Source: Ehretia macrophylla
Lineage: Eukaryota > Streptophyta > Magnoliopsida > Boraginales > Ehretiaceae
Assembly (NCBI GenBank): GCA_037974665.1
Contig: CM075766.1
Location: 44,939,569 to 45,003,568, forward strand
Length of the DNA stretch: 64,000 nt
Direction of reading: 5' to 3'
Positions 1 to 46,670 of the stretch are shown here, one piece after another. Within the stretch, counting starts at the first letter, position 1. The number at the start of each line of letters is the position of its first letter. The notes beneath the pieces are model-generated. The model did no database searches and was not told the DNA's origin. It saw only the letters and a program-made list of their open reading frames with translations. The translations under genes and the position numbers were made by a program.

Positions 1-295
1 CAGTTTTACTTTATAAAATTCAAAACCTAACAATTTTTCTATCAATTTTTATTATCAATTTTTTATCAGACAGCTATCCATCAATTTTGAATACAACGAG
101 TACACCCCCCAAACCCAACAGCACAGCAAGTCAGCCAATTGACCAGTGCACATGCCCAGTGGCGGAAATTTCAACTCGCAAATATTCATAACTCCTTCCA
201 CTTTCATAAAACCAACAAATACAACACAAAAAAAAAAAAAAAAAGGTGATTAGATTAGTGAATTAATAATCGGCGGTGGGTGGCGCTTCCGTAGA
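1..295 (+). promoter_or_regulatory. 5' flank and leader of the WDR13-like gene
   Basis: AT-rich sequence ending in an A-run at about 229-244 and a short leader before the ATG at 296. I see no convincing TATA box at a fixed distance and no other gene. The transcription start is not defined by the sequence. Confidence 0.35.
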
Positions 296-3200
296 ATGGC
301 GGAGCAGATGATGGAGAAGAGCTTGGCGGAAGATGATGATCCGAGAAAGAAGGAGAAGAAGAATAAAGAGGACATTACAGCAGATCCAGAATACTTCAGT
401 TGCATGCTTCAACCTTCGCCTTCCGACTCAGATCCTAATTACATCGGCGTCCGCCGCCTCCTTCTCTACCGTAAAGCTCGAGCCGGCGTTCTCCGCCGCA
501 AAGTACTCTCTCCTCTCTCTCCAATATATATATATATGTGTGTGTGTGTGTGGAGAATTGTTAAAGTGGACGATTGCCTTGTTAAGTTCAGTTGGATTTC
601 ATCTCTCTGGACTTGATCTGGTTTCTAGAATTGCCTGCTTATAGCATATACGTACATATATATAAATGCGTGTGTAAGTGTTATGTGTGTGTATATTATG
701 CTTCGTACGTTGATGTCTATATATGCACATGTTAACAGAGAGGCTTTGATGTTCACGCAGTAGCATATTGACGTGTGTTTGTGCTCTTTTATACACACAT
801 ATTTGTATATAAGGAAGAGGATTTGTGCTCTGAAGCTTTTACTTTGAACTTAAATCAAGAATAATGCTTAGTAGGAAATAACATATATAATGATAAATTA
901 AATATGCTGTAACGACTCCACATCTCGACAGCCCAATTGATGTTCCAGGCCTAGTGGAGCCTAACGCAAATGACAATAGCTTAAGCCCAATTCCTAGGAG
1001 AAGCATCAGAGGAAGGACCTTGCCTCAGCACTTGAGAAATTATGTGATCAGATAGTTGTAACTGAATGTGGATAGGCCATTGGCATTTGATGTAAGGAGT
1101 AGCCTATATATAAACTAACAGCAGGCATAGAAAAGGCTAAGCAACAACTCTTATCTTCTCTGTTTATTTTCCTGTAATTTCTTTAAGTTTGCAAATCAAT
1201 TCAGCTTCTTCCTTCTGCAGCCTTTAATTTCTTTTTTTTTAGTTTCTCCCTAATATCCAAATCATTACATTGGTTAATTTCTTTTTTTTTTAGTTTCTCC
1301 CTAATATCCAAATCGTTACATTGGTGCTTTCGTTGACTCCATGGCCGAAGGTACTGAACTTTACGCCATGGATTATTGGTCTCAGCAATTCTATCTTCAA
1401 TATGCTCGATACTACTCTTACCTTCCACCGACTCAACAATACCATCCCTATTTTCCTCCAATTTGCTCACAACCACAATTTCCAGGATATTATTATCCAG
1501 AATCGTTGTACCTGCGCGCTCAACCGTACCAACAAGTGAACGAACAATATTTTCCTCATGTCAACTCACAACCCCAGTTTCAAGCCCAATATTACCCTGA
1601 AAAGGCTAAGCAACAACTCTTATCTTCTCTGTCTAATATCCAAATCGTTACATACGCATTTAAACACATATATATTCGCACAAAGACACACACATATATA
1701 CATATATATAGGCTAATTAATGAGTTCACAGAAAAATTAAGATAAGGAATTGCCTGCTTATAGCATATTTAACATTTCACGAGGGAGATATTGTAGCCGC
1801 AGTTTGACCAGTTTAATTTCTTATCCATGTTGTGAATGCTGATGTTCGGGAGGGAGTTCGTTGAACTTGGGGTATTCTTTTTGACTTATTGTGTAGCTTA
1901 GTTTGTAGAATATGTTTTATTTTTTGGTTTTATTGAATGTGCTATATAAGCAGTGACTTAATGCTCTGCTTTGTTTTGAAGGACTGGAGATGCAATGGAA
2001 AAGGTTATGTGGCCTTTCGTAACTACATCAACAGACCGAGGAATTGGGAGAGATTATATATTAATGTACCTAGCCTCCCAAGTACTCCGGGACAGAGGTG
2101 GTTGGAAATTTACTTTAATTCTTTTAAATCTATTTTGTGGGAATGGTTGTTGTTAATTCTGCTTAAGTACTTGTCATGAACTAGTGACACTGGCACCATG
2201 ATTTTCATGCTCACTCAACGATCCATGCATGCGTGGCATGCATTGTCAGTTACCAAATGCTGATTATATCACTAAACCAGTTTGTATGGTAGTGGCAGAT
2301 CCTCATGGCAGGCAACTGCATCATTGATGTAGTTGCATGTATATAGTTTTAATGTCTATGATCCACAATGGCTTATCTTGCTGAAATCAAGTCTATGGAA
2401 TCTTAATTTTCTTCGGTCTAAAATGAATATACTAAAGTTTTCTCAACTTCCCTGTTTGTTCGAACTAGATACTAAAATTAGTCTGGAAGAAAAACTGGAA
2501 ATCGAGAGGGAAGGAGTTGGGTTTCAAACTTGTTTGCTAACAAATGCATTTGCATATCTTAAATTCTCATGATTCTTAAGCTTCATTCGAAATTGTTATT
2601 TAAGGTTGTGTTCCATACAATTCTGACATCAGGGTAATTTTACTGGTTGATGCATCAGTGGACGATGGATATCATCTCCTGGTCCACTCTCCCATTTATT
2701 TGAGGTGGATGGCTGGAGTTCTGGCACGGTATGTAGCATTTTCATTCAGTACCTTCTTTCTTCTTTTGCTGGTATTTTTCTCATCTTATATTGCATTAAG
2801 TTGCTCTCTGAAATCAGTAATTTACATTTGAATGTGAGTAGTGCGGCAGTTTTAAGTTGTGGTTGTGTAAAGAGCCATTTGTGTAGGTGGTTGACAACTG
2901 CATTTTATATTGATATAATTACTCTCGTTGAATACTTTGGTGTAAAAACGTGATTGGTGACTCTGAAGTGCTTAGTCTGTCAGGAACAAGCTTTACCAAG
3001 ATGAACCTTTTAAGTAAATGTGCTGAACTCTGATTGCATCCAGTCAACTGTTTGCTTGATAGTTATGAAAATGTTTTCTGAGTTTTGGTCCTGGTTGTTG
3101 GCATGCGGTTTGCGTAAGCATAATCAAGGTGTCATTTGTCCTTTAGCGGCGTGAATTTAGTTCTCGAACAAAATTTGAACCACTATGGTTGAGGCACTTA

Positions 3201-6200
3201 AGATAGTGAATAATTGACAACAATTTCTCACCATTACCCACACCAAAATGTATTATTCTTCACATAAGAATTCACCATGCAGGCTGCTATTTTACAGGAT
3301 CTACGAAGTGGTACTCAAGCATCGAATCATAGAACAAGTTTCAGCTCAAATGCAAGTGATAGTATCAGCCCACATAGAAGGGCTGCTGAACCTGCTTATT
3401 CTTTTGTTGGGATGCATTGCATTTTTGATCAGTGCAAGGCCATGGGTAATTTTTTAAAGCACAAAACCAAACTGTCTTTGTTATCAAGCTTTATTGATTG
3501 AAATAACTTGAGCTCATTTTTATGTCTGCAGTTACTGTTATAAAGTTTGGGCACATGAGTTCTGATCTACTTGCATATGGAGCATCTGATGGGAGCTTGA
3601 CAGTATGCACTGTTTCCACACCACCTTCAGTAATCAAGCAGTTAATAGGGCATTCAAAAGATGTCACAGGTTGGATTATCTGGTATTAGTTCTGTAAATT
3701 TTTTCAACCATATGGGGAATCTTTCAGTTGTACTGTTTCTTCTCGCAAGTGTTTACATAAGCTAAGTCAAATAGATTCACTATTGTTACAGAAGTTGATC
3801 ACAACATCTGTAGTTTAAGTTATTGGATTGCTCACTAGAAAAGTCAATGTGAATTTTGTTGCTTCCCCTGAATCATCTTCTGATACTTATGTTCAGAAAG
3901 GAATGGAGCATTTTCATTTTAAAGATTCTTTCACAATATTTCTGTTGTTTGCCTTTGCCTCCAATTTCTTACGTTGAGATTGAAATCCAATTTGACCCCA
4001 GTGTATGGAATTGTTTTGTTGGATGAGTTTTGATAAGCGATGGTACAGAACATATGTGGATTTAAAGTTTGTTCTGCCATGTGATCCAAATCAATTGTCA
4101 ATCAAAGCATATATAAATGTGAATATATTGAAGATGACTGTTATTATCTTTTATGTATTTCTGATTGTTATTATCTTTTATGTATTTCATTTACCATATA
4201 ATGTTTTGGTTCTATAAAACACATATATGGACTCCCTCACATCACTGTAAGTAGAGAATTGAAAGTTTGGGCCCCTAGCAAAGGCCTTTGTTTCTGATCA
4301 GGTAAAATCGATATGAAGAATAAGTCCTTTGAACCCCTTAAACCTCTCAACATGACTTTCGAAAAGTGCATTTTTAAATGCATCCACTCTAGCATGCATC
4401 CCTTAAATGTGGCTATCCGGTTCTGATGTCACAGTCTTCTAAGTGTTAAATATCTTTGACATTATAAATTGAAGTTTTATTTTGTTGGTCACTATCACTA
4501 TGTTCTGTTTTTCAGATTTTGATTTTTCAGCAAATAATCAGTACATTGCGTCATCCTCCGTGGACAAAACTGTGAGAGTGTGGGATATATCCAAAGGAAT
4601 TTGCATTAGAGTGATATATGGAGTTTCTTCACAACTTTGTATTCGGTTCCATCCTGTAAGTTCAAAATGGCATCTCACAAATTGAATTAAGAACTATAGT
4701 GACACTTAGATGGGTTTTTGTCAGTCATGTTGGTGACTAGTCTTGGGGACATGTGCACTATTCTTAACTTTCTCTTTCATTTTGACTCTCTGGGTTTTTT
4801 AGTTTCTTTTCTTGGTTGGAAATCCTTCATAAATTCTGTCCTTATTCTATATGAATACGTGCACCAGGAAGCACTAGGATTTATTTCTTTATCTAGTCAT
4901 ATCAGTATTCATTTTTTTTTCTTCTAAATCTATCTTGTCTAGGTCAATAACAACCTTCTTTCCGCGGGCAATGCAAACAAAGAGATAACTGTAAGTTATG
5001 CATACCTTTGCCTTACAACCTTTAAATTATGTGAAAGTTAGCTGTCATGTCATTATCATATTGAACTTCCCTTAATTGTCTATTTCGTTCTCATTATCTT
5101 TATTTTCTCTTATCCCACTTGAATATACTTTCAGCATCTCTGACCCTGCCCTCACCTCAACTCCACCAAGAGTAGGATATTTGTTTCACTATCATTACTA
5201 ATTTGCTGAAATGGCATAGTTTGGCAAGTATTCCAATTAAACCACAAATGGCCATTCACATGCGATGGAATTCTTGATGGAAAGGAGAAACGATTCAAGT
5301 AGCCTATAAAACATCTGCAATACGCCGGTTATCCTTCCTGTTGAGATTTCTAGTAATTGTTTCCACAAATTGCATTTTCCAGCCATCTCTCTCTTAGTTT
5401 CAAATTTAGTGTTAACGTAAAAATGGCTGAGCACCATTTCTGACTCGCGATTCTTCCCTACTCTCTCCTATGTGCTACTCGCAGTGGATCAGTATCAAAG
5501 CTTTAGTCAACCGGTAGTGAAGATTTGGATGCAGTCCTTATTCTCTCCTCTCTTATTGCAGGTTCACTTTTACATATAGTTATAAAGTGTACTGGCAAAA
5601 TAGATCTTCGAATCATGGAAATACATAGATAGCTATTGTTGGGGCATAAATACCTTGCTTCTCAGCAAGTTATACTCTCCGATCAAGTACCTCGGACACT
5701 CTTTATGCAGAGTCATTTTTTACGATGTTTAAGCTTGCTAGCACATCTCCTTGATATTACCTCAATAATATAATATTTAACAGCAGAACACGTAATCCAT
5801 GAAAGACTAGTTTTATACTTTCTGCTTAGTGCTATTTTCACTATTGATCAATCTATACAAATGTATACAGAATCGGGGGCTTTGATCTTTCAATTTTCCT
5901 ACATCAAAGAACTCCCCCTGCCTCATTAAATATGACTCTTTTAACTGGAATTTAGGTATTCAATTTCAGCACTGGGAGAACTATCAGTAAAACAACATGT
6001 GACAGTGAGGTGACTGCTATGGATCATGACCACACCGGTCAATTTATTTTCTGCGGTGATGCTCAGGTGTGCCTGCTTCATGCCCAATGGTTTTAACCAT
6101 AATTTTCTGACAATTTTCTAACTTGATTTCTTAGGAAAAATTTAATCTGATGTTCCTGCAGGGATGTATATACACGATTAGTATCGAATCTCGCAAAGGT

Positions 6201-23360: not shown

Positions 23361-24958
23361 TGAATTTAATAATATATAAGACTCATTTTATATATCAAGA
23401 GCTGATGGTGAACTCAAATGATTTGTAGAATTTTCGCAAAAATTTATCATATACGAATACGTGTCGGCAAGAATTTAGGTTCTTGTACTTGACCAATCAA
23501 ACCTCTACGTTAGCTTAAAATTGGATTTTACTTTTTACGAATCCCAAGGGTCTGTCCATAGTGACTCTCTGGTCCGCTGCTACTCTGGTCCTTGGCAGGC
23601 CCTGTTAATTTTTTGGTTTCATTTTCGGTCCCTACAGGATTGTCAATTTACTAAATGCTCCCTTTAATCTTCAAGTTCCTTTTCACCCTAACCGAAAAAG
23701 AGTTCTTTATTTGACCCAAAAAATAAAAAAAGAGAAAAAGAGCTATATTTAGCTAGTAAGACTTTAGTCCAGTAGTATGTTATTGTATATGTAAAAGGTT
23801 AACACGTCAAGTATTACTAATTACGTTGTCCTACCTTAAATTTTTTATAAAATAAAAAAAAAATGAAGAAAAAATTCTTTTTCTCCATTTGGAATATTTG
23901 GGTTGATCTTTGTTCGGTCTAAGTCATATAGGTTACAGGAGGTCTGGAGATCGTACTGCCAATGATTACCATATTTTTCGCACATCATCAAATTTCAGTT
24001 GTACAAGCATTTTAACACCAATCCTGCAATTTGTTTTATAGGAGAACCACCATGGCCATTAACCATCATCTTTCTAAGTGCTTATTTTGTAGGGGCCCGT
24101 TAGCAAGCCAATACAACGTCTTTGCCACCCAAGTTATTGATGGGAAATTGGGAGGCTATTAACCTCTCCAGCCGGGACCCCCAACCACTAACCACCAAAG
24201 CCCCATCCAATGGTCCTGCTATTTATAGGCCGTTGACTATAACTCGCACTTTAAAAGTGAAATTATTAAAAAATGAGTTGAAATTTTATTTTTTTGAAAA
24301 TATATTTATTTTTAGACTGAAAATTTAATTTAGCCATTATTGAAAAAAAGTCATCATATGTCAGTACTAGATTATATATTTTTAGTCATTGCTAAAAAAT
24401 AATCTTAGATTAACCCCTCCCCTTCCCCTGGCGGCACCCTAGGAAAAAAGGAAAAAGAAAGAAAGATAAAATGAAGAAGAGGAAAGTATGAGGGGACCCT
24501 ATCTCATCGATTGCGTGGAATAAGGAGACTAGTAAAAGAAAAATTGAGAATAATACGCTAAAATTTACCGTGAAAATGAGAGATGTCAATTCTATAAACT
24601 TCTCTATGAAACTATTGATTCTAGCATTGGCATAAAGTTCGGCATTTGCCTTATAGCATCGCTATGATGAAATGACCCGAATCATTTAGTGTAAAAATTA
24701 AATAACTATATTATTATTTTTCATCACAATTAATTTCATTTACATCGTTACATGTTTATTTGTTTTCACCTCTATTGTAGGAAAATCAAACAGGCATCAA
24801 TAACTTCCTAACACTAACGGAAGTGACCTTTCAGATTTGAATTTAGTCATTTAAATGGTTATAGAATACAATATAGCAATATCTTCCACGTGGGATAAAT
24901 TGTTTAAATGCATCCAACAATTTTTTGACCTCATCAATTATGCATCATTCTTTAAATA
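23361..24958. other. Intergenic, no feature recognised
   Basis: AT-rich, with no plausible gene or pairable repeat end seen on either strand. Confidence 0.45.
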
Positions 24959-25250
24959 CAAAACTTTTTTAATTTAGGTGTTTTTAGAGACTTCAATATC
25001 TAAAAAAAACACTATTTATAGCAAAAGTACGTGGAGTCCACCACTTTTGACTTAAAAGATACCAAAATAAATACCTAGTCTCTATTTTCTTCCATAAATT
25101 TGTTGAAAAAAATAGAGATTGGGTCTCTATATTAGCATATTTTAAGCCAAAAATAATAGACCTCACGTATTTTTATCATAAATAATATTACTTTTAAAGA
25201 TTAAAATCTCAAAAAATATCCAAATTAAAAAAATTTTATATTTTAAAGAT
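24959..25250. mobile_element. Hairpin MITE-like inverted repeat
   Basis: Two imperfect arms of more than 100 bases pair with each other, for example AAAAGTACGTGGAGTCC on the left with the reverse of GACCTCACGTATTTTT on the right. They are centred on TCTCTATTTTC near 25085. I could not fix the exact ends or a target duplication. A 35-bp direct repeat (about 24862-24897 and 25272-25306, core AATACAATATAGC) brackets the hairpin. Confidence 0.5.
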
Positions 25251-25680
25251 TTCATTAAAAATAGTCTTACATAATACAATATAGCCATATCTTTCATGTG
25301 GTAAACACCTAAAAAACCAAAAGCTTTGTCAAGGTTCAAGTAGTATGGTAAAAAGTCGGACTTTCTGTCAAGAAACCTCATTAATATTGTTGTTTTGCGG
25401 GAAAAATGCAGCAGTAGTCCCCATTGTTTACTCAAAAGTCAATTTAATCCCCATTGTTTTAAAATGCTCAAAAAGGTCCCCAATGTTTGTAAACATGCTC
25501 ATTGTGGTCCCTACCGTTAAAATTTTAACAGAAAATTTATAAAATAACTAAACTACCCTTACTTAAAAATAAAATACCCAAAATATCCCTATCTTCTTCT
25601 TCCTCTTCCAAACCCTCAACCCACCACCACCAAGCACCACCAAGCACCACCACCACCCACCACCCACTCCCCTGCGGCAC

Positions 25681-26020
25681 AGTGCCTCCCCCACCCCCCC
25701 TGGCGCGACAGCGCCCCCCCACCCCCCCCCTGCGCGCGACAGCGCCCCCCCCACCCCCCCCCACCCCCCCCCCCCCTGCGCGCAACAGCGCCTCCCACCC
25801 CCCCCGCCGCGACAGCGCCTCCCCCCACCCCCCCCTGCGCGCGACAGCGCCCCCCCCACCCCCCCCCTGCGCGCGACAGCGCCCCCCCCACCCCCCCCTG
25901 CGCGCGACAGCGCGCCCCCCCCCCCCCCCCCCCCCCCGCGCGCGAACAGCGCCCCCCCACCCCCCTGCGCGAACAGCGCCACCCACCCCCCCCCCCCCGC
26001 TGCGCGAACAGCCCCACCCC
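25681..26020. repeat. C-rich minisatellite (G-rich on the minus strand)
   Basis: About ten imperfect units of 30-45 bp, each a GCGCGCGACAGCGC-like core followed by long C runs broken by single A residues. The C runs vary most in length. The minus strand has many runs of three or more G. Long frames on the minus strand here (Gly-rich) are compositional artefacts. Confidence 0.92.
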
Positions 26021-26025
26021 CCTCC

Positions 26026-26290
26026 TTGTGTATTAGTGTGTGTTTTGGTGTTAGTGTGTGTTTATGAGTGTGTATTAGTGTGTATTTTTTGGTGTTAGTG
26101 TGTGTTTTTTGATGTTAGTGTGTGTTTGTGGGTGTGTTAATGTGTGTGTATTAGTGTATTTTTTGGTGTTTTTGTGAGTGTGTGTGTTTGTGGGTGTGTT
26201 AGTGTGTGTTTTTTGGTGAGTGCGTGTGTTTGTAGGTGTGTTAGTGTGTGTTTTTTGGTATTTTTGTGTGAAATTTTGTGTTTTTTGTGA
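26026..26290. repeat. GT-rich minisatellite
   Basis: Imperfect copies of TTAGTGTGTGTTTTTTGGTG-like units, with variants TTTGTGGGTGTG. It directly follows the C-rich array inside the same element and is strongly strand-asymmetric. Confidence 0.85.
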
Positions 26291-42739: not shown

Positions 42740-43216
42740 TGTAATGATCCCACATCGGAATCTCGTTCTCACAAGGGGTGCTTCTTAAATATAAGGGGTT
42801 CTCCCACTTAACAGACTAGTCTTTTGTGATAGGCTCTTCCTTTGGGCTTAAGTTATTACATTCTTGGGCTTATTTTGTTACATTGGTACTTTCATTGAGA
42901 GTGGCCTCCATGGCGGGTAGACTATAGGCTATATTAAGGTGTGGTAAGTGCCACACTGAATACTGATAGGTGGGTGCAACCGCAAAAAAAAAAAAAAAAA
43001 AGGGTTACCATCGGGTCAGTGTCGATAGACTAGCTCGACGTGGACGTTGACACTTAATTTAAGGGGGATGGAATGTAATGATCCCACATCGGAATCTCAC
43101 TCTCACAAGGGGTGCTTCTTAAGTACAAGGGGTTCTCCTACTTAACAAACTAGTCTTTTGGGCTGGGCTATTCCTTTGGGCTTAAGTTGTTACATTCTTG
43201 GACTTATTTTGTTACA
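42740..43216 (+). mobile_element. TRIM element (143-bp LTRs) in RPT4 pseudogene intron 1
   Basis: LTRs at 42740-42882 and 43074-43216 both run from TGTAATGATCCCACATCGGA to TATTTTGTTACA. The 191-bp interior begins TTGGTACTTTCATTGAGAG, a primer-site-like leader, and ends with a purine tract AAGGGGGATGGAA before the second LTR. No coding capacity. The left flank is ctctc and the right flank ttaat, so there is no matching duplication. Confidence 0.85.
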
Positions 43217-43692
43217 TTAATGTTATAATTCTTGGGATTTCAAGGAGTAATTAGAGAACAATTCGTGATGAACTCAATAGAGCTTGTGAGATTTCATTAA
43301 TTTGCATAAAAAATTACAATGAAGAAGAAGAAGACAGAAAAGACTAAAAAGTGAAATAACCAAAATAACAATATAGATTTCGCTACCATATGCTAATGCC
43401 TAACAAACTCTTGTACCATCCACACAGCTCAGAATATTCTCACTCTCAACTACAGTCCACGTAATCCTCCAAATAGATGGGCTTTATGCGTTTACGAACA
43501 CTACTTCTTTGCCTTTGGGCCTTGTTATCGAAGATTGGCCCTGCTTCGATAGTATATGCTAGTTTATTGCAATCCAAGTCCTGTGGATTCATAACATTGC
43601 TTTCCACCTCTGAAAGAACCTTGTCAAGGTTCAAAGACAGCTTTGAAATCTTGCAAGTCTAACCACGATACTTCCTCTTGTGGCAAATGCTG

Positions 43693-43965
43693 TCATTTAA
43701 TCCACACTTGAGGAATGATAATGCCTTTCCTAAGAACCACTCGTGGGTTTAAAATTTCAGCCGGTTGTAGTAATGACATCTCTGAATGAGGTGATAGAAC
43801 AATTTGATCTGATGAAACCCCTGTACTTCCAACAGCTTTCTTCAAGAGATAAACAGGGAATATAGGATGAATTTTAGCATTCGGTGGCAACGCCAAACGA
43901 TAAGCAACCGGACCAATCTTAGCTGTTACTTTAAAAGGACCGATAAATTTCCTGCTAAGCTTGTT
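43693..43965 (-). pseudogene. Ty3/gypsy integrase C-terminal tail
   Basis: NKLSRKFIGPFKVTAKIGP, VAYRLALPPNAKIHPIFPVY and LLKK are the conserved end of gypsy polyproteins between the integrase core and the LTR. The frame continues from the captured gene pieces without a stop. Farther on (43634-43446) a related frame continues to the LTR. Confidence 0.85.
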
Positions 43966-44019
43966 GTTGCCTTGTTCGCGAACAGAAGTCTGTATATATA
44001 TGGCTACAAATGGACTAAT

Positions 44020-44211
44020 ATCCAATCCACATTCACCAATCGCCACCACATTTCCTTTCTCAATTCCCTCTTTAGCTAATGATAGAAGTGCCTCAAAATG
44101 TTTCCCTGGATCCCCACTCGCATCGAATTCTTTGCATCTTGTTGGATGCACACAAACAGTGCAAAAAAGTCTGGCATTTGTTTCTGCAATAGCAAGAGCT
44201 TCCTTCACATT
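44020..44211 (-). pseudogene. TatD-like DNase fragment, second part
   Basis: KEALAIAETNARLFCT, VHPTRCKEFDASGDP, LLSLAKEGIEKG and VVAIGECGLD match plant TatD-related deoxyribonucleases, where the VHP and GECGLD motifs carry metal-site residues. Only this central piece is present, in frame with its neighbours. Confidence 0.8.
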
Positions 44212-44571
44212 TCTGCCTTCAAGAGGTGGAATGTTTGATAGCAGATGATATATCGTGTGAATAGAAAGCTCCATGCTTTCGCTTAACTGGCTCTTAGTGT
44301 TAGCATTTGGAGTTGCACTTTGGTCATCGGAGATATTTTTATCATCTAAAGTTCGTGAAAGCTTTTCCAGGTTGGTGTAAGTAAAATAGCAGATATCAAC
44401 GTAGTTGAAATATTTGGATGCAAGCAAATCCAAACTAATATCACCCACAACCAATTCAGAGTGAACAAAGGTATGAAGAAGCTTGTAGAAAATAACAGAA
44501 TGAAACTTGCCTCCTTTGCCGACTTTGACGAACTCCATTATCGTCTCCCAGACTACTTCTCGAATAGTTTT
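44212..44571 (-). pseudogene. Nucleolar NOC4-like fragment inside the TatD piece
   Basis: About 120 codons: REVVWETIMEFVKVGKGGKF, LLDLLASKYFNYVD-type words, FTYTNLEKLSRTLDDKNI and LSNIPPLEG. They recall the N-terminal part of plant NOC4/CBF-family nucleolar proteins (from memory). It sits exactly between two TatD pieces, as if inserted. Confidence 0.55.
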
Positions 44572-44676
44572 CTTCGATTCCTCAAGCGAACCCCCAGTCA
44601 CGATAATTCGCTCGATGCCATTGTATATTCCTTTGGACATATTATCTGTGAATTTAACAACTATGTCTATCATCTT
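44572..44676 (-). pseudogene. TatD-like DNase fragment, first part
   Basis: KMIDIVVKFTDNMSKGIYNG resembles the TatD N-terminus (IDI-NFTD-MFKGIYNG), joined directly to IERIIVTGGSLEESK from a later part of the same family. About 20 family residues between the two are missing. Confidence 0.75.
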
Positions 44677-44778
44677 TATGGAGTAGTCATGAGAAAGAGA
44701 AAAGAAATCCATAGTCGACAACCATAAAGAGCCATTACATGCACCATCCATCATCAAGAAAAACACTCCCATGGCAGC

Positions 44779-44877
44779 CAAAAGAACCAGTACATAAAAT
44801 GTGATCAAATTAATGATGAAAACATGACCACCCCATGTTGAACCCATGTAGAAATACCCAAAAGCTAAGGCCAGAGC
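44779..44877 (-). pseudogene. STT3 oligosaccharyltransferase fragment
   Basis: About 33 codons, ALALAFGYFYMGSTWGG then HVFIINLITFYVLVLL, match the conserved STT3 segment with the YFYMV-SWGGY-F-INLIP pattern. It is a hydrophobic membrane piece only, open on both sides into unrelated sequence. Confidence 0.75.
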
Positions 44878-44892
44878 CGAAGCAAGTGAACT

Positions 44893-45224
44893 TGTATTCA
44901 CATTTTTCTCCGGTATTTGATCAAAGACTTTCCTAGCCTCCAACAACCGACCATATTTCGCAAACCCACTCAAAATCGCCACCCAAAAAATAATCTTTGG
45001 CTTCTCAACCTTCTTAAGTAACCCCACGCCAACTCTAAATCCTTCAACACGCTTCCAGCAGATATCCTACTTACCACGGTAGCTTCATTAGGCCAAAAGA
45101 CCCCACGAGCATCTCCAATGCTACCACAATCAATGTAAATTTTCAACAAAGCATTACCAACCAAAACATCAAGATCCAACCCAAGAATCAACATATTCCA
45201 AGAAACCAATTCTCTCTTCAGCAT
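44893..45224 (-). pseudogene. PPR protein fragments (PLS type)
   Basis: Two frames: 45224-45030 has LVSWNMLI, LDLDVLVGNALLKIYIDCGS and PNEATVVSRISAGSVLKDLE; 45015-44893 has FWVAILSGFAKYGRLLEARK and VFDQIPEKNV. These are typical repeats of PLS-class pentatricopeptide proteins. They are not continuous and may come from one or two genes. Confidence 0.75.
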
Positions 45225-45227
45225 TTA

Positions 45228-45440
45228 ATCAAACAGTTTACTCAACATCACAGAATGCATATCTTCAACTAATTTCAACTTATTCCCATCAACCAGAACA
45301 TTCAACCACAAACTATAATTAAACGTCCCGGGTTTAAACACAAATTCTTTTTCCATAACATCAAGTATACGAATAATTTCATTATAAAATTCAAATTTCG
45401 CATAATATTCAATGAAGAAGAAGAAAGTACCATTACTTAT
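45228..45440 (-). pseudogene. PPR protein fragment, MEE40 (At3g53700)-like
   Basis: IEYYAKFEFYNEIIRILDVM, FKPGTFNYSLWLNVLVDGNK and LKLVEDMHSVM follow the pattern LIESYAQFEL..LNLLVDGNSLKLVE of the MEE40 P-class PPR protein (recalled from memory). It follows the gag-like region in the same frame. Confidence 0.7.
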
Positions 45441-46019
45441 TTTAACATCTGAACCTTGCTTCATGTCATTCATGCCTAGAAACTGTTTGCCGAAATGCTC
45501 AACCCAGAGAATGTTCAAATTGCTTATGATTGGCTTGCGTTGCTCGTTGCCGCCACCGTTTGAAGAGATCTCGTTATCGATCATCTGTCCTGAAGTATCT
45601 TCGTCGGATTTTATTACGTCATTGCACGAGGTATGGTCTTCCGACGTAACAACAGTTGGTGAAAAAACTTGAGTACCCATGATAGTGGTGATTGGAGAAC
45701 TCACCGATGGAATAGGTGGAATAGTCGGAGCTATCTCATGCACGAAACCCGGAGGGGTAGTAGGTGTTGTCTCCGATAATGGTATAGAAGGGGCTGTCGT
45801 CATCGTTGACAAAGTGGGCGCCGGAGATGGTAGAGCTCCAAATTTGTCAATTAAGAGCGCAATATATCGGTCAAATTTGGCGTCAAGAGCCGTGAGCATA
45901 GAATTGAGAGTGCCAAGAGTTTGTTGATGGTTATCAAGCCATTAAGAATGCTCGTTTGCAGTTTGCTCGAGCTTCTTCACCGTCTCCTCCATAGCATCGA
46001 ATATTATTCCGTTCGCCAT
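45441..46019 (-). pseudogene. gag-like start of the chimeric retrotransposon, broken
   Basis: MANGIIFDAMEETVKKLEQT begins at 46019 as in many plant gypsy gag genes and meets a stop at about 45946. The frame 45899-45225 then carries a Pro/Thr/Ser-rich stretch without a known domain, then an unplaced segment (DEDTSGQMIDNEISSNGGGN) that may be another captured piece. Confidence 0.55.
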
Positions 46020-46670
46020 GTTCGACTCTCAACGAGAGCACCAATGTTATAGTTCTTGGGATTTCAAGGAGTAATTAGAGAACAATTCGTGATGAGCTCA
46101 ACGTAACAGAGCTTGTGAGATTTCATTAATTTGCAGAAAAAATTACATTGAAGAAGAATAAGACAGAAAAGACTGAAAAGTGAAATAACCAAAATAACAA
46201 TATAGATTTCACTGCCATATGCTAATGCCTAACAAACTCTTATACCATCCACATAGCTCAGAATATTTTCACTCTCAACTACAGTCCATGTAATCCTCCA
46301 AATAGATGGGCTTTATGTGTTTACGAATACTACTTCTTTGCCTTTGGGCCTTGTTATCGAAGATTGGCCCTGCTTTAATAGTATATGCTAGTTTATTGCA
46401 GTCCAAGTCCTGTGGATTCATAACACTCTATTCAATTTCACATTAAAAAGAATAACATTTCTCTTTATGATAATCTGATTTAACTTACTTTGGAATTCAG
46501 ATATTCATATAATGTGTATATGTACATGTGTGTGTGAGAGAGAGAGGTGATTCTTCCTCAACGGTCCGGAGGTGGCTAACGTGAATATTGCATGTATATA
46601 CTTACATATATATGTATATGCGTGTTTGTGTCACATATACATATATGCATATATATATATATATGATACA

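Follow-up and report, generated by a model that had tools for sequence, protein, structure and literature searches.

The element and its pieces

The window analysed here is a stretch of 64,000 nucleotides from Ehretia macrophylla (C3:44939569-45003568), and the homology searches covered the same genome, 1.58 Gb in 20 contigs. On its minus strand, positions 43221-46425 hold a long terminal repeat (LTR) retrotransposon of 3205 bp whose interior reads, in minus-strand order, as a gag-like start, a P-type PPR piece, a PLS-type PPR piece, STT3, Kelch, TatD, NOC4, TatD again, and a gypsy integrase tail. Very probably it is a non-autonomous Ty3/gypsy element, now decayed, and belongs to a clan whose members acquire host cDNA through repeated template switching, with open frames perhaps favoured by selection. 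Element coordinates, marked e, are 46426 minus the window position, following the minus-strand reading.

The 5' LTR (46045-46425) and the 3' LTR (43221-43596), both on the minus strand, have TG...CA ends and are 94% identical. With 18 substitutions in 376 aligned columns, the Kimura two-parameter (K2P) distance is 0.050, which corresponds to 1.9 My at a substitution rate of 1.3e-8 per site and year or to 5 My at a rate of 5e-9. Adjoining the 5' LTR is a putative primer binding site stretch (46027-46044, minus strand), TTGGTGCT..., and the word TTGGTGCT is also found directly after the LTR in the related loci L012, L014, L053 and the sister on C19.

All interior pieces are on the minus strand. 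The gag-like start (45432-46019, ATG at 46019) is common to many sister loci, and its open reading frame (ORF) has no Pfam match. The P-type PPR piece (45213-45431) is common to L020-L048, L052, L053 and the C19 sister, with 3' ends that vary, and the PLS-type PPR piece (44902-45212) contains the window copy's single frameshift, which along with two stops interrupts a frame that otherwise connects the gag-like ATG with the integrase tail. The STT3 piece (44752-44901, e1525-1674; parent C15:38376578-38376850) has an internal in-frame skip of 123 nt, and the Kelch-protein piece (44685-44745, e1681-1741) has its parent at C18:17397726-17397786. TatD DNase, with a parent at C8:31948983-31950029 or a paralogue of it, is present as two parts of joined exons, a 5' part (44572-44682) with a 57-nt internal in-frame deletion and a 3' part (44039-44202). 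Between them is an insert of 369 nt (44203-44571), consisting of 12 unassigned nt and then the NOC4 piece, five joined exons with a parent at C13:7075029-7076156. The Ty3/gypsy integrase C-terminal tail (43597-44038), with SH3_Tf2-1 at 43998-43834, runs to the 3' LTR.

A minus-strand ORF of 457 aa (43693-45066) carries PPR, STT3, TatD and the gypsy integrase tail in one frame. Above the Pfam cut-off it matches SH3_Tf2-1 (1.2e-17) and TatD (2.9e-8), with PPR (0.0016) and STT3 (0.0097) falling below; a PDB sequence search finds PPR proteins, then STT3A (1.4e-6), then TATDN1 (7e-14), and a weak match to Ty3 Gag-Pol (E = 0.13) at the ORF end. NOC4 has no match in the element ORF in Pfam, NCBIfam or PDB searches, and its assignment rests on the parent gene, where the ORF downstream of the C13 coordinates has a CBF/Mak21 domain (6.8e-14). 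The Kelch parent likewise has a Kelch motif (1.7e-6). Parents were sought by searching the genome with the element middle, and all 23 candidates were scored; pieces and parents are 91-97% identical over most exons, which rules out chance similarity.

An earlier note on this DNA had described an LTR pair enclosing a gag-like start and a gypsy integrase tail, with pieces of two PPR types, STT3, TatD and NOC4 from five host sources. The outline is confirmed by the 94% LTRs and the SH3_Tf2-1 match, and the pieces by the PDB and Pfam searches and the parent genes. Multiple host sources are also upheld, but there are six of them, not five, because the Kelch piece (44745-44685) lies between STT3 and TatD. 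The layout with NOC4 inside TatD was absent from the note, and the intermediates and the reading-frame pattern described below go beyond it.

Spliced host mRNA as the source of the cargo

The NOC4 piece joins 5 exons from which four parental introns (111, 183, 115 and 362 nt) are gone, and the TatD piece is without four parental introns (111, 547, 107 and 104 nt). The exon ends align with overlaps of 1-7 nt, so each exon joint allows 2-8 alternative splits, and at every one of the 8 NOC4 and TatD intron sites exactly one split is GT-AG. Host pieces are in sense orientation, and the intron loss together with this orientation indicates that they derive from spliced mRNA. Whether the pieces lack the introns of their parent genes had been raised as a question in the earlier note, and for NOC4 and TatD they do. 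In sister elements, a UBR7-like piece is without one parental intron, again with a single GT-AG split, and the parents of the proteasome beta5 piece and of a dolichol-kinase-like piece show three gaps each against the piece, these being gap counts only.

The STT3 and Kelch pieces each lie within one parental exon and are uninformative on splicing. The 123-nt skip in STT3 was considered as a lost intron and ruled out, since it is inside an open exon and amounts to a 41-codon in-frame deletion; none of the ways of splitting the 57-nt skip in TatD gives GT-AG, and it is taken as a deletion of 19 codons. The lineage that led to the window copy shows these two deletions and the 369-nt insert as its three structural changes, each with a length divisible by three. 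Joints between pieces have either 0-4 nt of overlap or 2-12 unassigned nt. GAAG stands at the end of the left flank of the 369-nt insert and at the insert's own end, and a 13-nt duplication around NOC4 was rejected as a weak alignment extension, leaving the insert at 369 nt.

Capture at the DNA level, by a Helitron, a Pack-MULE or end-joining filler within an LTR element, has a precedent in the uptake of fragments of unlinked genes by plant DNA transposons, as recounted in PMC13317346. It is confronted here with exon-only cargo across eight introns, with sense pieces, and with 5-bp target-site duplications (TSDs) at the LTR ends of sisters; it is refuted for NOC4 and TatD, could hold only for the single-exon pieces (STT3, Kelch, PPR), and is as a whole extremely improbable. 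A Pack-MULE proper is ruled out by cargo without introns. Spliced sense pieces and joints of 0-4 nt fit template switching on RNA, a mechanism that we infer from this pattern, and with the eight lost introns they support the repeated template switching that the earlier note had proposed. Abnormal template switching of LTR elements has been described in the account given by PMC13317346.

The clan and the stepwise growth of its members

The earlier note had expected relatives elsewhere in the genome, and they are numerous. A 30-nt word of the gag-like start, with up to 2 mismatches allowed, occurs 73 times against 0 for the control, and a genome search with the interior gives at least 43 matching places (best 40 of 259 candidates scored). 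The gag-like start and P-type PPR are common to 26 loci (L020-L045), with 3' ends that differ by locus and with no match to the window LTR, and the PPR part extends to L046-L048. L031 has a long stretch of a P-type PPR gene (PPR_2, 5e-86). From the exact matches to the gag-like word, 8 of the 73 copies were fetched blind to cargo, and 7 of these 8 (L069, L071, L072, L073, L074, L075 and L076) carry host domains above the Pfam cut-off; in L069-L076 the cargo after the gag-like start is often not PPR.

Counting domains of one protein as one family, 31 host families reach the Pfam cut-off in element ORFs, or 30 if the FKBP and TPR of L076 are one protein: TatD, MTHFR, Argonaute, bromodomain, alpha-mannosidase, proteasome beta, sucrose-phosphatase, TSO1-type CXC, PPR, TCP-1, CBS, HSP70, ThiF, invertase, enolase, NB-ARC, tubulin, DEAD, TIR, GOST, malic enzyme, actin, thioredoxin, DUF3754, cullin, AAA_34 (SBNO type), FKBP, helicase C, TPR, Frigida and PAN. 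GroEL (L035, E = 1e-69) and N-acetylglutamate synthase (C19 sister, E = 1e-28) are NCBIfam matches below the whole-protein cut-offs, and an EMC1 match (L027, L024) is below the Pfam cut-off. UBR7-, RPA70-, dolichol-kinase- and MEE40-like pieces are presumed identities, named by eye, and the UBR7-like and RPA70-like parents have no Pfam match. By our own grouping there are about two dozen distinct cargo strings, in an inventory that is partial and biased to open frames because mostly the longest ORFs were scanned. Clan members appear to retain both ends of the gypsy polyprotein, with the gag-like start on one side and the integrase tail, or just its final residues ...LEDKV, on the other, and in place of the middle to have strings of pieces from spliced host mRNAs.

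Cargo of NLR type (TIR, NB-ARC) and of Argonaute (ArgoL1, PAZ, Piwi) is found at L053 1479-2069, L013 3810-5045, L066, L023 and L069, and such cargo might give rise to small RNAs directed at genes of the host itself. A use of the host pieces by the element or by its host, whether through proteins or through small RNAs, might be suggested by the TIR, NB-ARC, Argonaute, proteasome and cullin cargo; we regard it as very improbable, given that no protein-level constraint was found and that tubulin, enolase, malic enzyme and actin pieces show no common theme.

Some sisters of the window copy preserve intermediate steps. L052 (C6, LTR pair 94.9%) and L053 (C8, LTR pair 93.9%) hold the gag-like start, the P-type PPR and the STT3-Kelch-TatD run at 88-95% identity to the window, with a TatD that NOC4 does not interrupt. 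At the NOC4 insertion site, L052 and L054 read straight across where the window has 369 nt (123 codons). L052, L053 and L054 have instead a dolichol-kinase-like cDNA within TatD, at a different point from NOC4; it consists of four apparently joined exons from C17:75793012-75794136. A TatD without NOC4 in the sisters and an insert at another point point to stepwise addition, with pieces added singly, including within older pieces. Inner junctions common to these three loci and the window rule out an assembly chimera. With shared junctions in some relatives and different host pieces in others, the element is also not a single known polyprotein, and the host similarities persist, so that none of the outcomes by which the earlier note would have been overturned was found.

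One host chimeric gene or retrogene with all the pieces, transduced once and then copied, would account for the runs of identical pieces common to sisters. The sisters differ by discrete insertions, though, and carry other cargo behind shared starts, and no host locus with the window order is among the matches listed; we give a single transduction very little credence.

Eight places at C18:39.09-41.90 Mb, which form a local cluster, and C7:87.59 Mb and C7:101.61 Mb have the TatD parts that flank the dolichol-kinase insertion point adjoining, like an empty site. A second element, with LTRs of 1.5 kb (94.7%) and what by eye we take to be a Copia-like gag ORF, is nested in the C19 sister (L015 5263-6743 and L016, C19:4185262-4194049) and splits it.

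Transposition of the clan is indicated by perfect 5-bp TSDs at L014 (GAAAA), the C19 sister (CCATC), L052 (AAATC), L023 (CCTAC), L033 (CACTA), and L025 with its segmental copy L026 (TTGTC). The whole mosaic of L027 and L029 is 98% identical, with only the last 51 of 1150 nt of upstream flank in common, so with differing flanks the mosaic moved together with its cargo. L034 and L037 have only the last 161 nt of upstream flank in common with L038. L054 has a 98% copy at C8:82646170-82648111, the identity being that of the copy itself.

A search with the integrase tail gives 36 matches, from which four loci (L065-L068) were fetched. L067 has RVT_1 (2.6e-23), RNase H and an SH3_Tf2-1 tail as in the window, and is interrupted; L068 (C1:106573500-106577750) has integrase parts alone. 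Neither qualifies as an autonomous element, and chromodomain matches in both are below the cut-off. L066 is a mosaic with NB-ARC above the cut-off, and L065 by eye resembles the enolase-PPR mosaic L012. In L068, the gypsy integrase parts are downstream of what by eye is a Copia-like ORF in the same orientation, a possible composite.

Open frames and the place of the clan among known elements

In L027 a frame of 779 codons, still open where the fetched sequence stops, runs through the gag-like start, PPRs, proteasome beta5, UBR7-like, HSP70-like, MTHFR, RPA70-like and a weak EMC1 match, some of these named by eye, and has 0 stops in 583 cargo codons versus 32 and 69 in the other frames. The longest mosaic frame found, 1081 codons and open at the stretch start, is in L054 (reverse complement 2-3244, C17:46551557-46554799) and contains TCP-1 gamma, invertase, TatD, dolichol-kinase-like and further pieces, with 1 stop in 1083 codons versus 83 and 83. 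For a test across the clan, 34 interiors were each cut into six equal parts, which are not the true joints, and stops in the best frame were compared with those after random shifts of 0-2 nt; 13 near-copies had been left out beforehand (L022, L026, L029, L032, L034, L036, L037, L040, L042, L044, L047, L048 and L074). The result is p < 0.05 in 13 of 34 loci, with seven at the floor of 1/243 and a combined Fisher p of 2e-13. We conclude, with moderate confidence, that what is under pressure is the openness of the frame and not the protein sequence.

The process would run as follows. Element RNA would be packaged by a pol-bearing gypsy partner, and the reverse transcriptase would jump from it to a co-packaged host mRNA and back by way of 0-4 matching nt, each event adding one piece, even within one acquired earlier. 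Switching from one sister RNA to another would reshuffle pieces and LTRs, and would explain the shared interiors under different LTRs and the sliding end points. Less surely, variants with long frames might survive better, either through escape of their RNA from nonsense-mediated decay or through translation of the fusion en route to packaging, and the amino-acid sequence of the frame would matter little. The extended form of this proposal, an open-ended, recursive exon shuffling in which host coding sequence is replaceable in-frame filler because RNA survival or packaging needs an uninterrupted frame and not a protein sequence, we offer only tentatively. If true, the clan is a running record of the cellular mRNAs that met its reverse transcriptase.

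Several observations speak against the element as read here, or against its frame. The window copy has no 5-bp TSD (flanks ATTAA and CTCTA; such loss is common in old copies), and no TSD was found at L012, L013, L053 or L021. Many near-identical copies are local duplications (L038/L040/L042, L020/L022, L046/L047, L035/L036/L044 and partly L027/L032), which rules out treating all the sister copies as mutually independent. Sister copies with the same interior, which the earlier note had proposed to look for, are found as far as the shared inner junctions of L052, L053 and L054 go, and no second copy with the window's exact cargo is among the matches listed in the interior and parent searches. 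The four integrase-tail loci fetched include no intact pol-bearing partner, and in L070 the two ORFs scanned have no family match. As to the frame, the combined p overstates independence because loci share modules, and the open frames of L031 and L075 each consist largely of a single long piece. The remaining frame results are also what favours a reading in which template-switch capture is real and the frame irrelevant, the joins being random and long frames a matter of chance and host-coding composition: 21 of the 34 loci are individually non-significant, the window copy alone has no frame signal (p = 0.32), and an antisense control puts 4 of 34 loci below 0.05. The ratio of nonsynonymous to synonymous substitution rates (dN/dS) in the common frame of sister pairs is 0.59-1.85, indicating no clear protein constraint (lower values, down to 0.31, come from comparisons that take in out-of-frame codons), and only modest frame loss is expected after the split, random substitutions alone keeping the frame open in 22-27% of trials for two pairs. 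We consider an irrelevant frame rather unlikely in view of the Fisher value with its seven loci at the smallest possible p, the stop counts of L027 and L054, and window-lineage changes that are all multiples of three.

Classification of the window copy as an LTR retrotransposon follows from its LTRs, the integrase tail and the sisters with TSDs, its own TSD being absent. A TG...CA LTR pair, a gypsy pol remnant and a pol-bearing relative (L067, interrupted) agree with a non-autonomous Ty3/gypsy element, and the intronless NOC4 and TatD pieces with an element of Bs1 type; a terminal-repeat retrotransposon in miniature (TRIM) is ruled out by 3205 bp with a gag-like start and integrase tail. Bs1 of maize, as summarized in PMC13317346 and PMC4717578, is likewise an LTR element with exon-only host pieces forming a chimeric gene, but has three pieces where the window element has six, and the relatives here carry many other strings with intermediates. 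The soybean TRIM GmaRetroS15, with exon-only fragments of three genes, and elements like it share the exon-only pieces, the LTRs, the 5-bp TSD and copying after capture; the gene-carrying TRIMs differ in being 1.2-1.4 kb, with 30 elements in seven subfamilies of which two have exons of more than two genes, and their description in that report includes neither a gag start nor an integrase tail, and says nothing of a reading-frame pattern (PMC4717578).

The maize B73 survey counts 425 LTR elements with gene fragments from at least 189 captures, and under its conditions 0 of the 425 combined fragments from two or more standard nuclear genes (PMC2774510). Rice and sorghum likewise have host genes in LTR elements, counted as annotated genes, with no multi-gene mosaics in the account of PMC3726574. 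Pack-MULEs and gene-carrying Helitrons also take up host fragments on a large scale, but by the descriptions in PMC13317346 and PMC4717578 they are DNA elements, with introns in Pack-MULE cargo, as against exon-only cargo between LTRs here. A comparable clan was not found in searches of the openly licensed literature on gene capture by LTR elements, preprints aside. Hence the kind is known, with up to three genes, and what appears new relative to the accounts in these sources is the number of pieces, the breadth of cargo, the nesting and the frame pattern.

LTR gene capture has mostly been viewed as single events, and this clan shows many multi-gene mosaics, often in-frame. Its intermediates and identifiable parents allow jump sites, microhomology, event order, joint phase and the mRNAs sampled to be measured. 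The clan also provides a way to ask directly if a retroelement requires an open frame on grounds other than the protein, and it is a natural source of novel chimeric frames.

Elsewhere in the window, a 118-bp direct repeat (91.5%) at 42767-42884 and 43101-43218 abuts the flank of the element and, with a purine run before TGTAATGATCCC, resembles the border of another LTR element. Positions 25529-26114 are a low-complexity stretch coding for proline and glycine with strong skew, the GC skew being -0.33 in 24001-26000.

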